Made by a program: the position numbers and the translations under genes. The notes beneath the pieces are model-generated. The model had not been told where the DNA came from. It worked only from the letters and a program-made list of their open reading frames with translations, and made no database searches. From NCBI GenBank assembly GCA_023250585.1, contig JAHFAK010000070.1, positions 1-12,540 of the forward strand: a stretch of 12,540 nucleotides of DNA, read 5' to 3'. Origin of the DNA: Deltaproteobacteria bacterium (GTDB lineage: Bacteria; Bdellovibrionota_F; JAHFAK01). Within the stretch, counting starts at the first letter, position 1. Each line of letters begins with the position of its first letter. Positions 4,521 to 12,093 of this stretch are shown here, in pieces.

Positions 4521-4526
4521 CCTCCT
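4521..4526 (-). promoter_or_regulatory. Shine-Dalgarno of rpoC, overlapping the rpoB stop
   Basis: The minus strand reads TAGGAGG, where TAG is the rpoB stop codon (4525-4527) and AGGAGG is the ribosome binding site. The TTG start of rpoC follows after 5 nt. This decides the unusual start codon and means ribosomes finishing rpoB end on the site that starts rpoC. Confidence 0.85.
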
Positions 4527-7500
4527 AATGGACTTTTTCATCTTTTTTAAGCATTTCCACATTGAGCCCTAATCCTTTTAATTCTTTAATTAAAACATTA
4601 AAAGATTCAGGTAAACCGATTGTTACATCAGTTTCTCCTTTAACAATAGCTTCATATGTTCTCGTTCGACCATAAATATCGTCTGATTTTACGGTCAAGA
4701 ACTCCTGTAATGCATATGCAGCACCATAAGCTTCGAGCGCCCACACTTCCATTTCTCCCAGTCGCTGACCACCGAATTGAGCTTTACCTCCAAGTGGTTG
4801 CTGGGTTACTAAGGAGTATGGTCCAATTGAACGTGCATGAATTTTATCTTCAACAAGGTGATGTAATTTTAATATGTACATTACTCCAACGGTTACATTA
4901 TTAGCGAATTTTGTCCCCATTCGGCCATCAAATAATATCAATTGTCCACGAGATGGAAAGCCAGCTTCTTTAAACATATCTTTAATGTCATCTTCTCGTG
5001 CGCCATCAAATACAGGTGTATCCAAGAAAACTCCTCGCTTGGCCAATTTTCGAGCAAGGACATACACTTCTTCTTGGCTTAATGAATGGAGTAATTTTTT
5101 AATATGAGTATTATCTCCATATAATTGAGCGATATGATTTCGTAGAGAAGTAACGCCTTCTTTTTCATTTAAAAGAAGATTTAGTTTTGCCGCTATACCT
5201 TTTGCAGCCCATCCCAAATGAGCTTCAAGAATTTGTCCAACATTCATTCGGGAAGGTACACCGAGTGGATTGAGAACAATATCTACAGACGTGCCATCTT
5301 CCATATATGGCATATCTTCTTCAGGGAGAATCTTCGAAACTACTCCTTTATTACCGTGACGACCAGCCATTTTGTCGCCAACATTAAGCTTTCTCTTTGT
5401 TGCGATATAAACCTTGACCATCTTCACAACTCCAGGAGGGAGTTCATCGCCACGTTTTATTCTATCGATCTTTTCACTAAAGATCATTTTTACCATATCA
5501 ACTTGTTCGTTCATCGTAATAAGAATGGTATTTATTTCTCGTTCAACAGATTCTCCACTCTTCAGAGAAATATCAGTATAAAGCTGAGGGTCAATAGCAT
5601 CAAGAATACTCGCAGTTAGTTTCGTGTTTTTTGCTATAAGTTTCTTATTTCCACTTGAGTCAGTAAGCGGCGCAGCAGTCGTTTTACCAAGCAATACCTT
5701 TCTAATTTTCTGATAGGTATTATCTCTAATAACTTTTATTTCATCTTGCTGATCCTTAAGTAAACGAGCCATCATTTCATCATCTTCTTTTTTGGTGCGG
5801 TCATCTTTATCTACACCTTCTCGAGAAAACACACGTGCTCCAATAATAGTTCCTGTAACTCCTGGAGTTACTCGTAATGAAGTGTCTTTCACGTCTCCAG
5901 CCTTTTCACCAAAAATTGCCCGCAATAATTTTTCTTCAGGAGAAAGTTGCGTTTCACCCTTAGGAGTAATTTTACCAACAACAATATCTCCGGGTTTTAC
6001 TAATGCACCTATTCGAATGATTCCGGCTTCATCGAGATTAGCCAAGGCTTCTTCATTAACATTCGGAATATCTCGTGTGATTTCTTCCTTACCTAACTTC
6101 GTATCCCGTGCAACACACTCAAATTCTTCAATATGAACTGAAGTATAGATATCATCTTTGACTAATTTCTCACTAACTAGAATTGAGTCTTCAAAGTTAT
6201 AACCTCCCCAAGGCATAATTGCTACAACGACATTTTGCCCTAACGATAACTCCCCGAGACTCGTTGAACTTCCATCGGCAAGAACCTGGCCCTTTACAAC
6301 TTTGTCACCTAGATCAACAATAGGTCGCTGATTAAGACAAGTACTCTGATTAGATTTTTTGTATTTAGTGAGATTATAAATATCAATATCATGGCCATCT
6401 GTTTTTTCGTCTCTTTTTATAACTATTCTCGTCGCGTCAACACTATCAATAACTCCAGCTGCCTTGGCAAGAATAGTTACTCCAGAATCTTGTGCAACTT
6501 TACCTTCTATTCCAGTACCAACGATAGGTGCAACTGGTTTTAAAAGTGGCACCGCTTGCCGTTGCATGTTTGATCCCATGAGCGCTCTATTTGCATCATC
6601 GTTTTCTAAGAAAGGAATAAGGGAAGCAGCAACACTCACGAGTTGATTTGGAGAAACGTCCATATAATTTACTTCAGCAGGGCCCACAATAACAAATTCT
6701 CCACCCTTACGAGCAGAAACAGATTTATTAATAAACTTACCCTTTGGATCCAATGGAGCATTGGCTTGAGCTATAATATATCTTTCTTCCTCTAGAGCGG
6801 ATAAATATTCAACATCTTTTGAAGCAATTCCATTGTCTACTTTCCGATAGGGTGTTTCAATGAAGCCAAATTCATCTACTTTTGCAAATGTGCTGAGAGA
6901 TGCAATAAGACCAATGTTTGGACCTTCAGGAGTTTCAATAGGACACATTCTTCCATAGTGAGTAGGATGAACATCTCGAACTTCAAATCCTGCGCGGTCT
7001 CTGGTCATTCCCCCTGGTCCTAAGGCACTGAGCCTTCGTTTATGGGTTACTTCAGAAAGAGGATTTGTCTGATCCATAAATTGAGAAAGTTGACCACTAC
7101 CAAAAAATTCTTTCAGCACTGCAGAGACTGGTTTTGCATTCACGAGCTCATGTGGCATAAGTGTCTCAACTTCCTGTAAGCTCATTCTCTCTTTAATCGC
7201 ACGTTCCATCCGTACGAGACCAATACGGTATTGGTTTTCAACTAATTCACCGACTGATCGTACGCGACGATTACCAAGATGATCGATATCATCAACTTCT
7301 TTAGTTCCATTTTTTAAATCAATAAGATATCGAACAACTTCAAGAATATCTTCCTTTCGTAATGTCTGATAATCGAGCGGAATATCATTAAAATTGAATT
7401 TGAAATTAATTTTAAGTCGTCCAACTCGAGAAAGATCATAACGAACAGGATTGAAAAACAGATTATTAAAATAGGTTGTAGCGCTATCAACTGAAGGCGG

Positions 7501-8646
7501 ATCACCAGGTCGCATTCTTTTGTAAATTTCCAGTAATGCCTCTTCATGATTTTTTACTTTATCGATAAGCAGTGTTTCGCGAAGTGAAGCATCGATATTA
7601 AAATTGTCTATATATAACATATCGAATTCTTTGAGTCCTGCTTTTTGAATTTCTTCAAGTTTTTCAAAAGTAATTTCTTCATTACAACGAACGATAACGT
7701 CTCCTGTTTTTGGATTCGTAATATCATTTGAAGCTATTCCACCAATTATATTTTCTTCAGTGATTTGTATTTCTTTTATTTTAGCTTGCAGTAACTTCTT
7801 AAGAGAAAATTTTGTAAATTTTCTATCTTTTTTCAGAAGGATTTCGCCAGTCGTTGGATGCTTAATATTATAGGGGTTCTTTTGGCCTGAGAGTAAATCA
7901 GGATCTGTACTTACAAAAAACGTTTTATCTTTTATTTTGATATGCTCAGATTTATAAAAATAATTTAAAAGTTCTTTTTCAGAAAATCCAAGCGCTTTAA
8001 GAAGAATTGTTGCAGGAATTTTTCGTCTTTTATCAATTCTTACATAGAGAATATCTTTATGATCAAATTCAAAATCGAGCCATGATCCTCGATAAGGAAT
8101 AACACGACCAAAATAAAGAACTTTGCCGCTTGAGTGTGTCTTTCCTTGATCATGATCAAAAAAAACACCCGGCGATCTCTGAAGTTGACTTACAACAACA
8201 CGCTCAGTTCCATTAATTACAAACGTTCCTTCATCAGTCATTAAGGGAATTTCACCAAAATAAATTTCTTGTTCTTTAATGTCACGGATTGACTTTGCTC
8301 CCGTAATTTCATCAACATCCCAAATAACCAGACGAACAACAACACGGATAGGAGCAGAATACGTCATCCCACGTTCTTTGCATTCATTGACATCATACTT
8401 TGGCGCATCAAAAGAATAACTTACAAATTCAAGTGAGGCGGTACCACTAAAATCAGAAATTGGAAATACACTGGCAAATACTTTCTGTAACCCTATAGCT
8501 TGACGCGCTTCAGGTTTAATATTTTTTTGCAAAAAGCTTGCATACGATTCAATTTGAACTTCAATAAGATTAGGAATATCAATGATTTTATCTATTTTTG
8601 CAAAACTCTTCCTTGTCCTTAGAACTTCTGTTATTCCCGCACTCAT
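4525..8646 (-). CDS. rpoB: DNA-directed RNA polymerase subunit beta
   Basis: The second-largest subunit of RNA polymerase, 1373 residues from the chosen start. The rifampicin region begins [13 protein letters not shown] at residue 514; against E. coli as I remember it, the main contact residues (Q513, D516, H526, R529, S531, L533 and I572 in E. coli numbers) are kept, while S509 is G and N518 is T. The motif [10 protein letters not shown] carries K1100, with K1092 eight residues before it, matching the two active-site lysines. An acidic and charged segment ahead of these lysines ([18 protein letters not shown] and onward) corresponds to the second lineage-specific insert. The end, [19 protein letters not shown], is canonical. 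I chose ATG at 8646 because GGGAG lies 5 nt upstream and the N-terminus fits the family; an upstream GTG at 8670 would add eight residues inside the intergenic palindrome. Text similarity is highest to deltaproteobacterial RpoB, from memory. Confidence 0.99.
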
Positions 8647-8660
8647 AGACTCTCCCTTTA

Positions 8661-8783
8661 TACACAACACCAGAACTTCGTATACCTATGTTGCTCTTTC
8701 ATCTCGTCGCTGCAGCGTACTAATGTATACGCCTCACTCCTCGATTTTGGAACGACTGGATCTACTCATTCTGGAGTTGTGTA
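8661..8783. repeat. Long imperfect palindrome in the rplL-rpoB gap (element A)
   Basis: The outer arms 8661-8675 and 8769-8783 pair at 14 of 15 positions. At the centre (8716-8735) lies CGTACTAATGTATACGCCTC, whose GCGTA/TACGC (8715-8719 with 8728-8732) forms an apical stem. The segments between pair poorly. A second pairing, CGTATAC (8679-8685) with GTATACG (8725-8731), competes with the apical stem. The central 20 nt match the centre of the secE-nusG palindrome at 16 of 20 positions. The outer stem ends about 5 nt before the rpoB Shine-Dalgarno. In E. coli the same gap carries an attenuator and an RNase III site, so a similar role is possible; there is no U-run to mark a terminator. Confidence 0.75.
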
Positions 8784-8811
8784 CCAGATTACTTATGTCG
8801 TTTTATATAAT

Positions 8812-9204
8812 TTATTTCAGTTCTACTTTAGCGCCAGCTTCTTCTAATTGCTTCTTCATTTTCTCAGCTTCTTCTTTTGGAACAGCTTCCTTGAGAACTT
8901 TTGGAGCATTATCAACGAGATCTTTCGCGTCTTTTAAGCTTAAACTCGTAAGAGCCCGCACTACTTTAATAACTTGAATTTTTTGTTCTCCTGAGCTTAC
9001 AAGATGAACAGCAAAGTCAGTCTTTTCTTCAACTGGTCCAGCAGCAGCTCCTGCAGCTGCTGGCATTGCTGCCCCAGCAAAAACAGGCGCAGCAGAGCTT
9101 ACACCAAATTTTGTTTCTAATTCTTTAATTAATTGAGATAACTCCAGTACTGACATTTTTTCAATAAATGAAACAACATCTGCTTTTGTTATGTTTTCTG
9201 ACAT
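8812..9204 (-). CDS. rplL: 50S ribosomal protein L7/L12
   Basis: The stalk protein of the large subunit, present in several dimers, which recruits and stimulates the translation GTPases. It has 130 residues. The N-terminal dimerisation part (about 1-32) binds L10; an Ala/Gly/Pro-rich hinge (about 36-57) follows; the C-terminal factor-binding domain holds the conserved block [20 protein letters not shown] and ends [14 protein letters not shown]. The start is ATG at 9204, with GGAGG 7 nt upstream; the TTG twelve bases earlier lies in that Shine-Dalgarno and is not a credible start. It sits 56 nt after rplJ, and a 165-nt gap with a palindrome separates it from rpoB. Confidence 0.98.
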
Positions 9205-9222
9205 ACGAACCTCCAATGAGTA

Positions 9223-9251
9223 GAACTTTCGAGATAATTCACCTAAAGTTC
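9223..9251. repeat. Small inverted repeat in the rplJ-rplL gap
   Basis: GAACTTT (9223-9229) and AAAGTTC (9245-9251) can form a 7-bp stem with a 15-nt loop in the transcript, ending a short way before the rplL Shine-Dalgarno. It might tune the high L7/L12 output or stabilise the message, but a stem this short may be chance. Confidence 0.4.
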
Positions 9252-9260
9252 CGAGTAATA

Positions 9261-9788
9261 TTATTTATTCTTCTCCTTCATGTCCTGAACGGCAGTTAAG
9301 GCATATAACAGCTTTCGTGGTATTCCAGCAAGTACATTCACAAAATTACTGATTGGAGCATTAAATGTGCCCAGCAATCGAGCGAGCAATACTTCACGAG
9401 AAGGAAGCTCTGCTAATGCTTTAACTTCATTAAAGGACAAAACCTTATCTTCTAAAAATCCAGCTTTAATCTTAATTTTTTGATTTTCCCGAACATAATT
9501 ATAAAGTACGCGAGCTGGATCTATTATTGAATCCAAACTATATCCAATAGCAGTAGAACCTTCGAAATAAGCGGACAGCCCTTCTGCTTTACTTCCCTTT
9601 AGCGCCTTTTTTGCCAAAGTGTTTTTAATAACTTTAAATTTAACGTGGTTAGTCCGCGCTGTTTTGCGTAATACATCAACCTCAGAAACTTTGATGCCCG
9701 TAAAATCAATAAGAACAGCAGATTTCATGTTGCTAAAATCATTAACCTGACTATTAATAATCTGACTTTTTTTCTCTTTCGTAATCAA
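9261..9788 (-). CDS. rplJ: 50S ribosomal protein L10
   Basis: The base of the ribosomal stalk: it binds 23S rRNA beside L11 and holds the L7/L12 dimers on its C-terminal helix. It has 175 residues, slightly longer than E. coli L10. The N-terminal half shows the family pattern, with [17 protein letters not shown] and [13 protein letters not shown] near residues 29-67, and the C-terminal stalk helix runs from about [20 protein letters not shown] to the end. The start is TTG, chosen because AAGGAG (9796-9801) lies 7 nt upstream and no ATG or GTG fits. Only 31 nt separate it from rplA, leaving no room for the long structured L10-binding leader found before rplJ in E. coli. Confidence 0.97.
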
Positions 9789-9819
9789 TGGTCGTCTCCT
9801 TCAATTAGATACAATTTTC

Positions 9820-10527
9820 TTAATTGCCCATATAGTTTTTTAAATCATTAGGATCTACTTTGATTCCAATCCCCATAGTAGAACTTACCGCAATACCTTT
9901 CAAATATACTCCTTTTGAGGTTTGGGGTTTTAATTTAATTATAAGATCCATAAGTGCTAAAAAATTTTCTTGTAATTTTTGCGGGCCAAAAGAAACCTTT
10001 CCGAGAGATACATGAACAATACCACTTTTTTCAGCACGAAATTCAATTTTACCTGTCTTTTGTTCACGAACTGCACGACCCACATCAAACGTTACGGTTC
10101 CTACTTTTGGATTAGGCATAAGACCCTTAGTACCTAAAATTTTACCTACTTTACCAACTGTACCCATAACATCAGGCGTTGCAATCACTTTATCAAAGTC
10201 AAGCCACCCACCTTTAATCTTTTCCAAATAATCTTCTAAACCAACATAATCAGCGCCGGCTTCTTCTGCCTCTTTAATTTTCTCTCCTTGAGTAAAAACT
10301 AAGACACGCACTTTCTTACCTAAACCATGGGGCAATAAAGCAGCGCTTCTTACCATCTGGTCGGCGTGTTTAGGATCAACACCTAAATTAATTGCAGCAT
10401 CAACCGTTTCATCAAATTTAACATGTGCAGTTTGTGTTAAAAGCGAAAACGTTTCAGTAACGGAATAAACTTTTTCCCGATCAATTTTCTCTAATGCTGC
10501 ACGATATTTTTTACCTCTTTGTGACAT
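9820..10527 (-). CDS. rplA: 50S ribosomal protein L1
   Basis: L1 forms the mobile stalk at the E site of the large subunit and helps release deacylated tRNA; in many bacteria it also represses its own rplK-rplA message. It has 235 residues, the normal length. Typical blocks are the N-terminal [33 protein letters not shown], and the signature region [18 protein letters not shown], followed by [19 protein letters not shown]. The start is ATG with GAGAGG 5-6 nt upstream. It follows rplK by 23 nt, the usual order. Confidence 0.98.
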
Positions 10528-10550
10528 ATCTACCTCTCAAAAACGTATCT

Positions 10551-10973
10551 TTATTTTATTTCTATTCCCATGCTACGAGCCGTGCCTTCAATAATCTTAA
10601 TAGCCTGCTCAAGACTTCCTGCATTTAAGTCAGGCATTTTAAGTTCAGCAATTTCCTTAACCTGATTTTTTGTTACAGAGCCTACTTTGTTTTTGTTTGG
10701 CTCCGAAGAACCCTTTTCAACTTTCGCTGCTTTTCTTAATAATACTGAAGCCGGTGGAGTTTTTGTTATAAAACTAAAAGATCTATCTGCATAGACAGTA
10801 ATAATAACAGGAATTACTAAATCCCCTTCTTTTTGCGTTTTTGCATTAAATGATTTACAAAACTCCATTATATTGACGCCATGTTGTCCTAATGCAGGAC
10901 CAACAGGGGGAGCAGGATTTGCCTTACCTGCTGGAATTTGTAATTTAATTTGGCTCACAATTTTTTTTGCCAT
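10551..10973 (-). CDS. rplK: 50S ribosomal protein L11
   Basis: L11 is part of the GTPase-associated centre: it binds 23S rRNA next to L10 and takes part in factor binding and the stringent response. The 140 residues are the standard length. The N-terminal domain has the proline-rich [20 protein letters not shown], and the C-terminal rRNA-binding domain has [16 protein letters not shown] and ends in an [14 protein letters not shown] helix. The start is ATG, with AGAGG (10980-10984) 6 nt upstream. Only 9 nt separate it from the nusG stop, and that stop codon overlaps the Shine-Dalgarno. Confidence 0.98.
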
Positions 10974-10979
10974 ATTATA

Positions 10980-10984
10980 CCTCT
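10980..10984 (-). promoter_or_regulatory. Shine-Dalgarno of rplK, overlapping the nusG stop
   Basis: The minus strand reads TAGAGG; TAG (10983-10985) ends nusG and AGAGG serves rplK. This repeats the arrangement at the rpoB-rpoC junction and suggests that L11 translation is coupled to NusG. Confidence 0.75.
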
Positions 10985-11513
10985 ATGCCTTCTCGACTTG
11001 TGTAAAATCAAGCTCTACGGGTGTTGATCTTCCAAATATACTCACCAACACGCGTAATTTTCTTTTGTCTGGTTTTATATCTTCAATAATGCCATTAAAA
11101 TTAGAAAACGGACCATCGACAACTCGTATATTTTCCCCTTTTTCAAACGCCTCCTTCGGCTTTGTTTTTAACACACCTTCAGAAATTTGATTGGTTATTC
11201 TGCTAACCTCAGACTCACTTAACGGAGCTGGATTCAGAGAGTTCCCCACAAAACCACTAATTTTAGGAGTATCCTTAACAACATGCCACGTTTCATTAGT
11301 CAATGCCATTTTTACTAAAATATATCCGGGAAAATACTTTTTTGACTTCTTCTTTTTTTCTCCCCTAACTAATTCTTCAACCTCTTCGCTTGGAATTAAA
11401 ATTTCATCAAAAAAAGGTTCTACTTTTTTTATTTTAATAATCTCCTGCAAATTCTCTTTTGCTTTATGCTCACATCCGGACTGCGTATGAACAATATACC
11501 ACTTTTTTTCCAT
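10983..11513 (-). CDS. nusG: Transcription termination/antitermination factor NusG
   Basis: NusG binds RNA polymerase through its N-terminal domain, suppresses pausing, and links polymerase to ribosomal protein S10 or Rho through its C-terminal domain. It has 176 residues, near the E. coli length. The start MEKKWYIVHTQSGCEHKAKENL is the typical NGN opening, KKYFPGYILVKM (about 59-70) is the conserved core, and a linker around 100-120 leads to the KOW domain with GENIRVVDGPFSNFNG and a final VELDFTQVEKA. The ATG at 11513 fits the family start, but the sequence before it (GAAAGTAGCTGCATAGTAT) has no strong Shine-Dalgarno, unlike its neighbours. A 202-nt gap with a large palindrome separates it from secE. 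Confidence 0.98.
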   Translation of the reverse strand: MEKKWYIVHTQSGCEHKAKENLQEIIKIKKVEPFFDEILIPSEEVEELVRGEKKKKSKKYFPGYILVKMALTNETWHVVKDTPKISGFVGNSLNPAPLSESEVSRITNQISEGVLKTKPKEAFEKGENIRVVDGPFSNFNGIIEDIKPDKRKLRVLVSIFGRSTPVELDFTQVEKA

Positions 11514-11535
11514 ATACTATGCAGCTACTTTCTTC

Positions 11536-11714
11536 AGGTCACCTCTGGAAACTATCTTCTACTGCAAAAACATGCTCTGGTCTCGACTTCGTCAGATTTC
11601 GCAAAAAGTTCTCAACGTACTTATTGGTACGCCTCCGAACTTTTCACTCATCTTCCTTGTCTCGAACTCCAGATCATGTTTTTTCGTTACGAACATAATT
11701 TCCAGAGGTGCCCT
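11536..11714. repeat. Very long imperfect palindrome in the secE-nusG gap (element B)
   Basis: Three nested pairs share one centre: 11536-11555 with 11695-11714 (18 of 20), 11566-11580 with 11669-11683 (14 of 15), and 11604-11611 with 11637-11644 (8 of 8). An apical CGTAC/GTACG (11616-11620 with 11627-11631) tops the stem. The element runs from just after the secE stop to about 20 nt before nusG. Its central 20 nt (11616-11635) match the centre of element A at 16 of 20 positions. As RNA it would form a hairpin of about 180 nt with internal loops. It could be a mobile palindromic element, a processing site or an attenuator; no U-run supports a classical terminator. Confidence 0.9.
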
Positions 11715-11715
11715 A

Positions 11716-12093
11716 TTATAAAAAAATTCCCAATATTTTAATCCAGAGAAAATCAAAAATTCCCAATATTGATGCAGCAATAAATACCAACACCAACACA
11801 ATCAGTGTAGATGCACTTGTTTCCTTACGAGGAGGCCACACTATTTTTTTTAATTCATTTATAACGTCATTCGTAAAATCAACACTACGAACGTTTCGTT
11901 GCAAATAAACAAACAATCCTAAAGCTGGAAGTACTGCTAAAGGAGTAAGGATGGTCACATCACCAATGAGCGGATATACTGTTATTCCAAATAAATCAAC
12001 TATAGATAATAATATTTTTTCAGTAATGTACCATAAAAGTGTAGCTAAAGCTAAAAAACTAATAATAATCCATTTTTTATTTTCATTATTCAT
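11716..12093 (-). CDS. secE: Preprotein translocase subunit SecE, three-helix form
   Basis: SecE clamps SecY in the inner-membrane translocon. The 125 residues match the E. coli three-helix form and not the 60-70-residue single-helix form of most bacteria. Hydrophobic segments lie at about 8-33, 37-64 and 96-125. The conserved part is the amphipathic helix and turn NDVINELKKIVWPPRKET (75-92), with the invariant W86-P87, followed by the last membrane helix. The two N-terminal helices show no motif I recognise. The start is ATG with a modest AAGGTG 7 nt upstream. It lies 21 nt after tRNA-Trp, in the usual place before nusG, and its stop abuts the long palindrome. Confidence 0.96.
   Translation of the reverse strand: MNNENKKWIIISFLALATLLWYITEKILLSIVDLFGITVYPLIGDVTILTPLAVLPALGLFVYLQRNVRSVDFTNDVINELKKIVWPPRKETSASTLIVLVLVFIAASILGIFDFLWIKILGIFL

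Follow-up and report, generated by a model that had tools for sequence, protein, structure and literature searches.

Two long palindromes in a 12,540-nt stretch of DNA from a Deltaproteobacteria bacterium (assembly GCA_023250585.1, contig JAHFAK010000070.1; hereafter the window), one in the gap between rplL and rpoB (copy 1) and one in the gap between secE and nusG (copy 2), belong to a dispersed hairpin family with more than 25 copies in the host draft genome. By analogy with known repeats, the family is probably a non-autonomous extragenic palindrome of the miniature inverted-repeat transposable element (MITE) kind that works like the ERIC/IRU repeats. Its copies are dispersed and intergenic, share a conserved tip, have covarying arms with purine mismatches on one strand, and are patchily distributed over many bacterial families. 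In addition, they differ in presence between species of one genus and, in one subfamily, have defined inverted ends.

A dispersed family with a conserved tip

Both window palindromes carry near their centre a 20-nt core, CGTACTAATGTATACGCCTC at 8716-8735 and CGTACTTATTGGTACGCCTC at 11616-11635, and the positions and the 16/20 identity reported in the initial annotation are confirmed. The pairwise match alone is borderline, the best 20-mer match having reached 16 in 1 of 60 shuffles; we take the core family as real because the genome-wide counts are decisive. Specifically, each strand of the host genome has 28 sites with the core pattern, where a reversed control pattern has 6 and 13, and the exact core, without mismatch, has 22 sites against 0. 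Searching this genome with the DNA of copy 1 gives at least twelve additional locations, and a consensus query gives about 30. The search for further cores that had been proposed from the window thus yields more copies, in this genome and elsewhere, and the proposal of a family in which the tip is conserved and the self-complementary arms are free holds.

The exact core, GAGGCGTA-N5..11-TACGCCGC, is present in 20 of 386 genomes across Bacteria. Twelve of the 20 carriers are multi-copy (3-28 copies each), whereas the reversed control pattern gives single matches only. Every carrier genome has its own loops and arms, and the same fold is found in the copies of other genomes. A covariance model built from three genomes finds the family at unrelated loci in many other genomes, with no match in 15 control rpoB loci. 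The arms of the two window palindromes had been described as unrelated to each other. This needs correction, as the covariance model R2, trained on other copies only, mostly from other genomes, recovers both (E 8e-8 for copy 1, E 3e-5 for copy 2).

The exact core was not found in the other sampled genome of the host class, the host phylum being represented by two genomes in the sample. The flanks examined around rpoB relatives (54-65% identical, the top ones mostly 'Deltaproteobacteria'/Myxococcales metagenome-assembled genomes) contain no hairpin copy, an exact pattern query against a genome-contig collection gave no match, and neither plasmid and phage records nor Rfam gave a match to the family. 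Copies are also present in IMG/VR contigs, several in one contig.

Elsewhere in the host genome (G000), at locus L097 on contig C163, two copies lie back to back with a third nearby in an apparent rRNA/tRNA region; each copy has near-perfect outer arms of its own. Shortened copies are found at L102, L104 and L108 (contigs C6, C43 and C14), where the tip or one inner arm is lost and the outer parts are kept.

Covarying arms and conserved purine mismatches

The palindrome is imperfect, with a median length of 126.5 nt (about 126 nt). On the strand that reads GAGGCGTA..TACGCCGC, taken as forward, copies typically have the form ATACACGACGCAAGAACGAGCAGACCAAGGCACGACGAAGTCGAGGAATGAGGCGTAC-loop-GTACGCCGCAGTGACGAGACGAGGAGTAACGAAGGTATGCGAAGTTATGGCGTCGTGTAT. 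Among 24 related copies, standard pairs fill 96.7% of the paired cells, 22 of 37 pairs have changed on both sides (11.3 in shuffles), and 97 cells are double changes (25 in shuffles); sliding the pair partners abolishes the covariation signal. A cross-genome alignment likewise shows changes on both sides in 18 of 27 pairs.

The arms also contain conserved mismatches (G/A, GA/GA, AA/GA and GA/GAA), which are kept as strongly as the pairs and which we infer to be tandem sheared G.A pairs. Unpaired bases on the forward strand are 86% purines, and the fold of this strand is therefore better than that of the complement; this applies to 83 of 87 copies under DNA parameters and to 76 of 87 under RNA parameters. 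Of the 216 cells that make up the 1x1 and 2x2 loops, only 8 are complementary.

The initial annotation offered two origins for such arms. In the first, template switching or inverted duplication would restore the symmetry of the arms while the tip stays fixed, a process that could account for double changes far exceeding single mismatches, for some outer arms of at least 20 nt that are near perfect, and for L004 and L005, where a GA/GA mismatch is replaced by a perfect GGAAT/ATTCC pair, a local exception that resembles a repaired mismatch. However, copying one arm from the other would erase the mismatches, yet they persist almost everywhere, also across genomes, and no arm remnant is present at the empty site described below. 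The arms are therefore explained better by compensatory change under selection than by template switching, and we regard renewal as very unlikely. In the second, a long hairpin would be selected whatever its sequence; the covariation bears out the long hairpin, but the conserved, ordered purine mismatches contradict 'whatever its sequence'.

Inverted ends and probable mobility

The typical copy is extended on the left by CTATACACAACGACATAAATAATTGCG in G000 and in G171, an unrelated genome, which gives a unit with inverted 17-nt ends (TATACAnArCGnCATAA), mostly 152-180 nt apart, the unit being about 154 nt. Roughly 20 copies with paired 17-nt inverted ends are found in G171, and the copies of both genomes start and finish with TATA. 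The G000/G171 subfamily thus has the terminal inverted repeats and constant unit length by which MITEs are generally recognized.

At four host loci, L018, L023, L024 and L030 (contigs C70, C113, C115 and C157), a second palindromic element, TCCTGCTTCG..CGTAGTAGGAC, is inserted at one and the same point immediately 3' of the tip. Its insertions in L024, L030 and L018 are accompanied by 7-bp duplications, each matching the copy that hosts it (GCAGCGA, GCAGTGA and GCAACGA).

The genomes G092 and G360 belong to one genus and differ in the copy L289, which is present in G360 and faces a clean empty site in G092, CTCCTTCGC|TTAGATG. About 139 nt, core and both arms included, are absent from this site, which provides one clean case of the empty orthologous gap that had been suggested as a check. 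Because neither arm is present at the empty site, the L289 arms came with the element. Among the other copies of this genus, the position of L290 is common to both genomes, as is that of L288 with L282, while L292 is common to both but rearranged and L281 has decayed to its right arm. Of 59 copies compared, 6 lie between direct repeats of 9-12 nt, where mismatched flanks would predict 0.4.

A pre-existing terminator hairpin, into which the element would have inserted and from which it would have taken its arms, is rejected at L289, the empty site being without a hairpin. At L282, L284 and L288 (G092, G360), the right end recurs as a direct copy in the left flank, together with a few nt from the end of the neighboring gene (TCACAT, TCAGCC), which looks like successive use of one site by two elements.

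Several points weigh against a MITE-like element. Target duplications are inconsistent between subfamilies: the G000/G171 copies have TA-like ends, a few others have 9-12 nt, and L289 shows no obvious duplication, at most TT. There is a single clean empty site, which may reflect precise loss instead of insertion. An autonomous parent or mobilizing enzyme was not found in profile searches: Y1_Tnp (RAYT/IS200) has no match in G171, G286, G155 and G255, and DDE_3 (IS630) was not detected in most carriers, G171, G286, G132, G148 and G360 among them. In G171, which at 100% completeness and with about 20 copies is the most complete of the strong carriers, none of the inverted-end pairs encloses a gene. 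Finally, MITEs usually conserve their ends, and a tip conserved across phyla with free arms is unusual.

On the favored reading, an ERIC-like, MITE-like palindrome, the element would be moved in trans by a putative enzyme, with one strand serving as the recognized or folding strand. The arms would drift by compensatory change since folding would be required, either as single-stranded DNA in transposition or replication, or as RNA.

Placement relative to genes

Placement was determined with codon-usage-scored gene calls, which replaced a first count from longest open reading frames (ORFs); the orientations from the longest ORFs were not used, since antisense ORFs interfere where genomes are GC-rich. 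Three of 87 copies lie inside genes by the codon-usage calls, and the earlier ORF-based count had 85 of 88 copies intergenic. The 63 copies in classified gaps comprise 23 sense, 20 antisense, 16 convergent and 4 divergent cases, and a general transcript-sense role is unlikely because the sense and antisense counts are similar.

These counts bear on the idea that a structured RNA element (cis-regulatory, an RNase III processing hairpin, or a small RNA) is selected at the transcript level, an assumption made by Aklujkar et al. for Geobacter. Strong covariation would be in accordance with such an RNA, as would the sense orientation of both window copies in ribosomal-protein operons, a further copy between rplJ and rplL in G360, and an element position between dapB and dapL that is conserved in two Geobacter species (PMC2700814). 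However, the family has no sense preference, the G360 rplJ-rplL copy is antisense, no tie to a single gene class is seen, Rfam has no match, and copies are missing at some orthologous sites. We consider a transcript-selected RNA unlikely as the general explanation.

The right end often adjoins the stop codon of an opposite-strand gene (34 of 46 at 59-73 nt from the center); this cluster may be partly due to stop triplets in the element ends, and we hence treat it as a lead. In most copies on viral (IMG/VR) contigs, the core-to-stop distance is constant at 49 nt. The IMG/VR loci L378, L380, L385 and L401 have several copies per contig in one orientation, 49-61 nt from the next gene's stop, which looks like repeated use of gene 3' ends.

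Such positions could be produced by an attachment-site-like hairpin, like the integron attC, that some enzyme recombines at gene 3' ends into gene-plus-hairpin units. The better-folding strand of the family is the antisense one, and its counterpart in attC is the bottom strand, likewise antisense and better folding. In contrast, 23 of the 63 classified copies are sense and have no such gene, the family conserves its tip whereas attC conserves its ends, and the ORF calls behind the distances may run into the element's own stop triplets. An attC-like unit is accordingly the kind of explanation to which we give hardly any credence.

The window copies and their neighbors

The two copies and the genes around them are as follows.

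8659..8809, minus strand: copy 1, the whole element in the rplL-rpoB gap, with imperfect 17-nt inverted repeats at its ends
8658..8790, minus strand: palindrome of copy 1; 112.8 bits with covariance model R1 (copy 1 in the R1 training set), R2 without copy 1 E 8e-8
8713..8735, minus strand: conserved tip of copy 1, GAGGCGTATACATTAGTACGCTG, exact pattern match
11536..11714, minus strand: copy 2, a longer and more diverged palindrome that fills the secE-nusG gap, from inverted arms, fold and R2
11613..11635, minus strand: conserved tip of copy 2, GAGGCGTACCAATAAGTACGTTG, exact pattern match
8812..9216, minus strand: rplL (TIGR00855, E 1.6e-41), stop TAA at 8812-8814, 2 nt from the left end of copy 1
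4525..8646, minus strand: rpoB (TIGR02013), GGGAG and ATG directly after the right end of copy 1, sequence TATAAAGGGAGAGTCTATGAG
11716..12093, minus strand: secE (TIGR00964, E 4.9e-13), stop TAA 1 nt from copy 2
10983..11513, minus strand: nusG (TIGR00922, E 7e-65), downstream of copy 2

The ends of copy 1, TATATAAAACGACATAA (8793-8809, minus strand, 1 mismatch) and TATACACAACACCAGAA (8659-8675, plus strand, 2 mismatches), agree with the ends of other G000 and G171 copies, and its right end is located just before the rpoB ribosome-binding site. Copy 2 has inverted arms at 11536-11559/11691-11714 and 11566-11580/11669-11683, and R2 matches it over 11564-11690. The minus strand is the operon sense strand, on which both copies read GAGGCGTA..TACG.. 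in the same orientation; both are sense-oriented in one ribosomal-protein/RNA-polymerase gene cluster, in which the identities of rplL, rpoB, nusG, secE and rpoC are confirmed by NCBIfam. As minus-strand RNA, the rplL-rpoB palindrome folds at -50 kcal/mol (z -4.4) and the secE-nusG palindrome at -84.2 kcal/mol (z -11.2). ERIC in Yersinia (PMC2229807) offers an analogy that makes effects of these hairpins on the transcripts plausible. As a predicted by-product of their position inside operons, the long RNA hairpins would probably act in the processing or stability of the rplL-rpoB and secE-nusG transcripts.

Other repeats are present in the window. An inverted repeat of 38 nt (246-338, 97% complementary, 17-nt loop) directly at the rpoC end is apparently a further palindrome family or a terminator. 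A perfect 16-nt direct repeat, AAAAATTCCCAATATT, is found at the secE 3' end (11722-11737 and 11755-11770). Positions 2-95 contain two inverted copies of a TCATCCCGYGGCTTGACCRCGGGATCCA palindrome, which presumably resembles the CGTC-type repetitive extragenic palindromes (REPs) known from Rickettsia and others.

Comparison with known repeats

The initial annotation did not recognize a named repeat family. For the core this still holds, as we found no name in the literature covered, which mostly leaves out subscription journals, where an earlier description may exist. The kind of element, ERIC-like and MITE-like, is already known, and probable Geobacter members were noted, unnamed, in 2009.

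REP/REPIN repeats are extragenic palindromes like the family, often near stop codons (PMC12306157), and have lengths of 20-40 nt and GTAG or CGTC tags (PMC3733652). The family differs from REP/RAYT systems, judged by length, in its 126-nt palindrome, and Y1_Tnp was not detected in the four genomes named above. RUP and other IS630-type MITEs, and Chunjie of Geobacter uraniireducens, are, like the family, short and non-autonomous with inverted ends, and they share TA at the ends with one subfamily here (PMC2229807, PMC10969869). The host IS630 transposase with matching ends that goes with an IS630-derived MITE was not detected, as DDE_3, in most carriers, G171 included. Chunjie is unlike the family in length (178-235 bp), a distinction drawn from its description only. 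RAYT and IS630 are both rejected as general mobilizers, since neither was detected in G171.

Aklujkar et al. reported in 2009 24 intergenic 'predicted short RNA elements' of G. metallireducens with the central palindrome GRCGTAGCGCTGCTACGCC, and elements with this tip in other Geobacter species and Desulfotalea (PMC2700814). The L226/L227 tip, GGCGTAGCAGCGCTACGCC, seen in G230 and G309, is the reverse complement of this palindrome. The 2009 elements (tip GRCGTA..TACGCC) probably belong to the same family; the comparison is one of tips only, and they have only the outer part of the tip in common with the window copies.

ERIC/IRU/RU-1 repeats (features from PMC2229807 and PMC2759123) and the family are both dispersed, intergenic, imperfect palindromes of about 126-128 nt, and the median length and intergenic share given above fit the ERIC description of an imperfect intergenic palindrome of about 127 bp. 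TATA-like ends are found in both ERIC and the G000/G171 subfamily; no empty site was seen for this subfamily that would display a TA target duplication like that of ERIC. In real ERIC copies from E. coli, the unpaired bases of one strand are 78-84% purine and that strand folds better (DNA parameters); the ERIC consensus behind them was verified in 5,376 genomes. In addition, the ERIC-like words GGCGGCAAG and CGCAGCCAAC occur in G032 copies. However, the tip differs (..GAGCTTAC..GTAAGTGA.. in ERIC, GAGGCGTAC..GTACGCCGCA in the family), and the family hosts are far from the enterobacteria that carry ERIC. ERIC is the third-best match in the R2 search, in the right register, with a non-significant E of 0.19; it reaches 0.065 with R1 unfiltered and is absent in the filtered search. 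Because the tip differs and the models have no significant ERIC match, we do not claim that ERIC is a member.

A broader and rather doubtful proposal is that ERIC, the Geobacter elements and the family are branches of one ancient mobile-hairpin class across phyla, in which an uncharacterized enzyme would read the folded strand by its tip and sheared G.A ladder, not by arm sequence, and would insert beside stop codons. ERIC and similar small palindromic repeats are regarded as specific to a lineage. Here, genomes of many bacterial families retain a single tip and a single mismatch ladder while the arms coevolve, and recognition would therefore be separable from sequence, which is directly testable. 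The motif GAGGCGTA-N5..11-TACGCCGC is searchable and could unify unnamed repeats and lead to the mobilizing enzyme.

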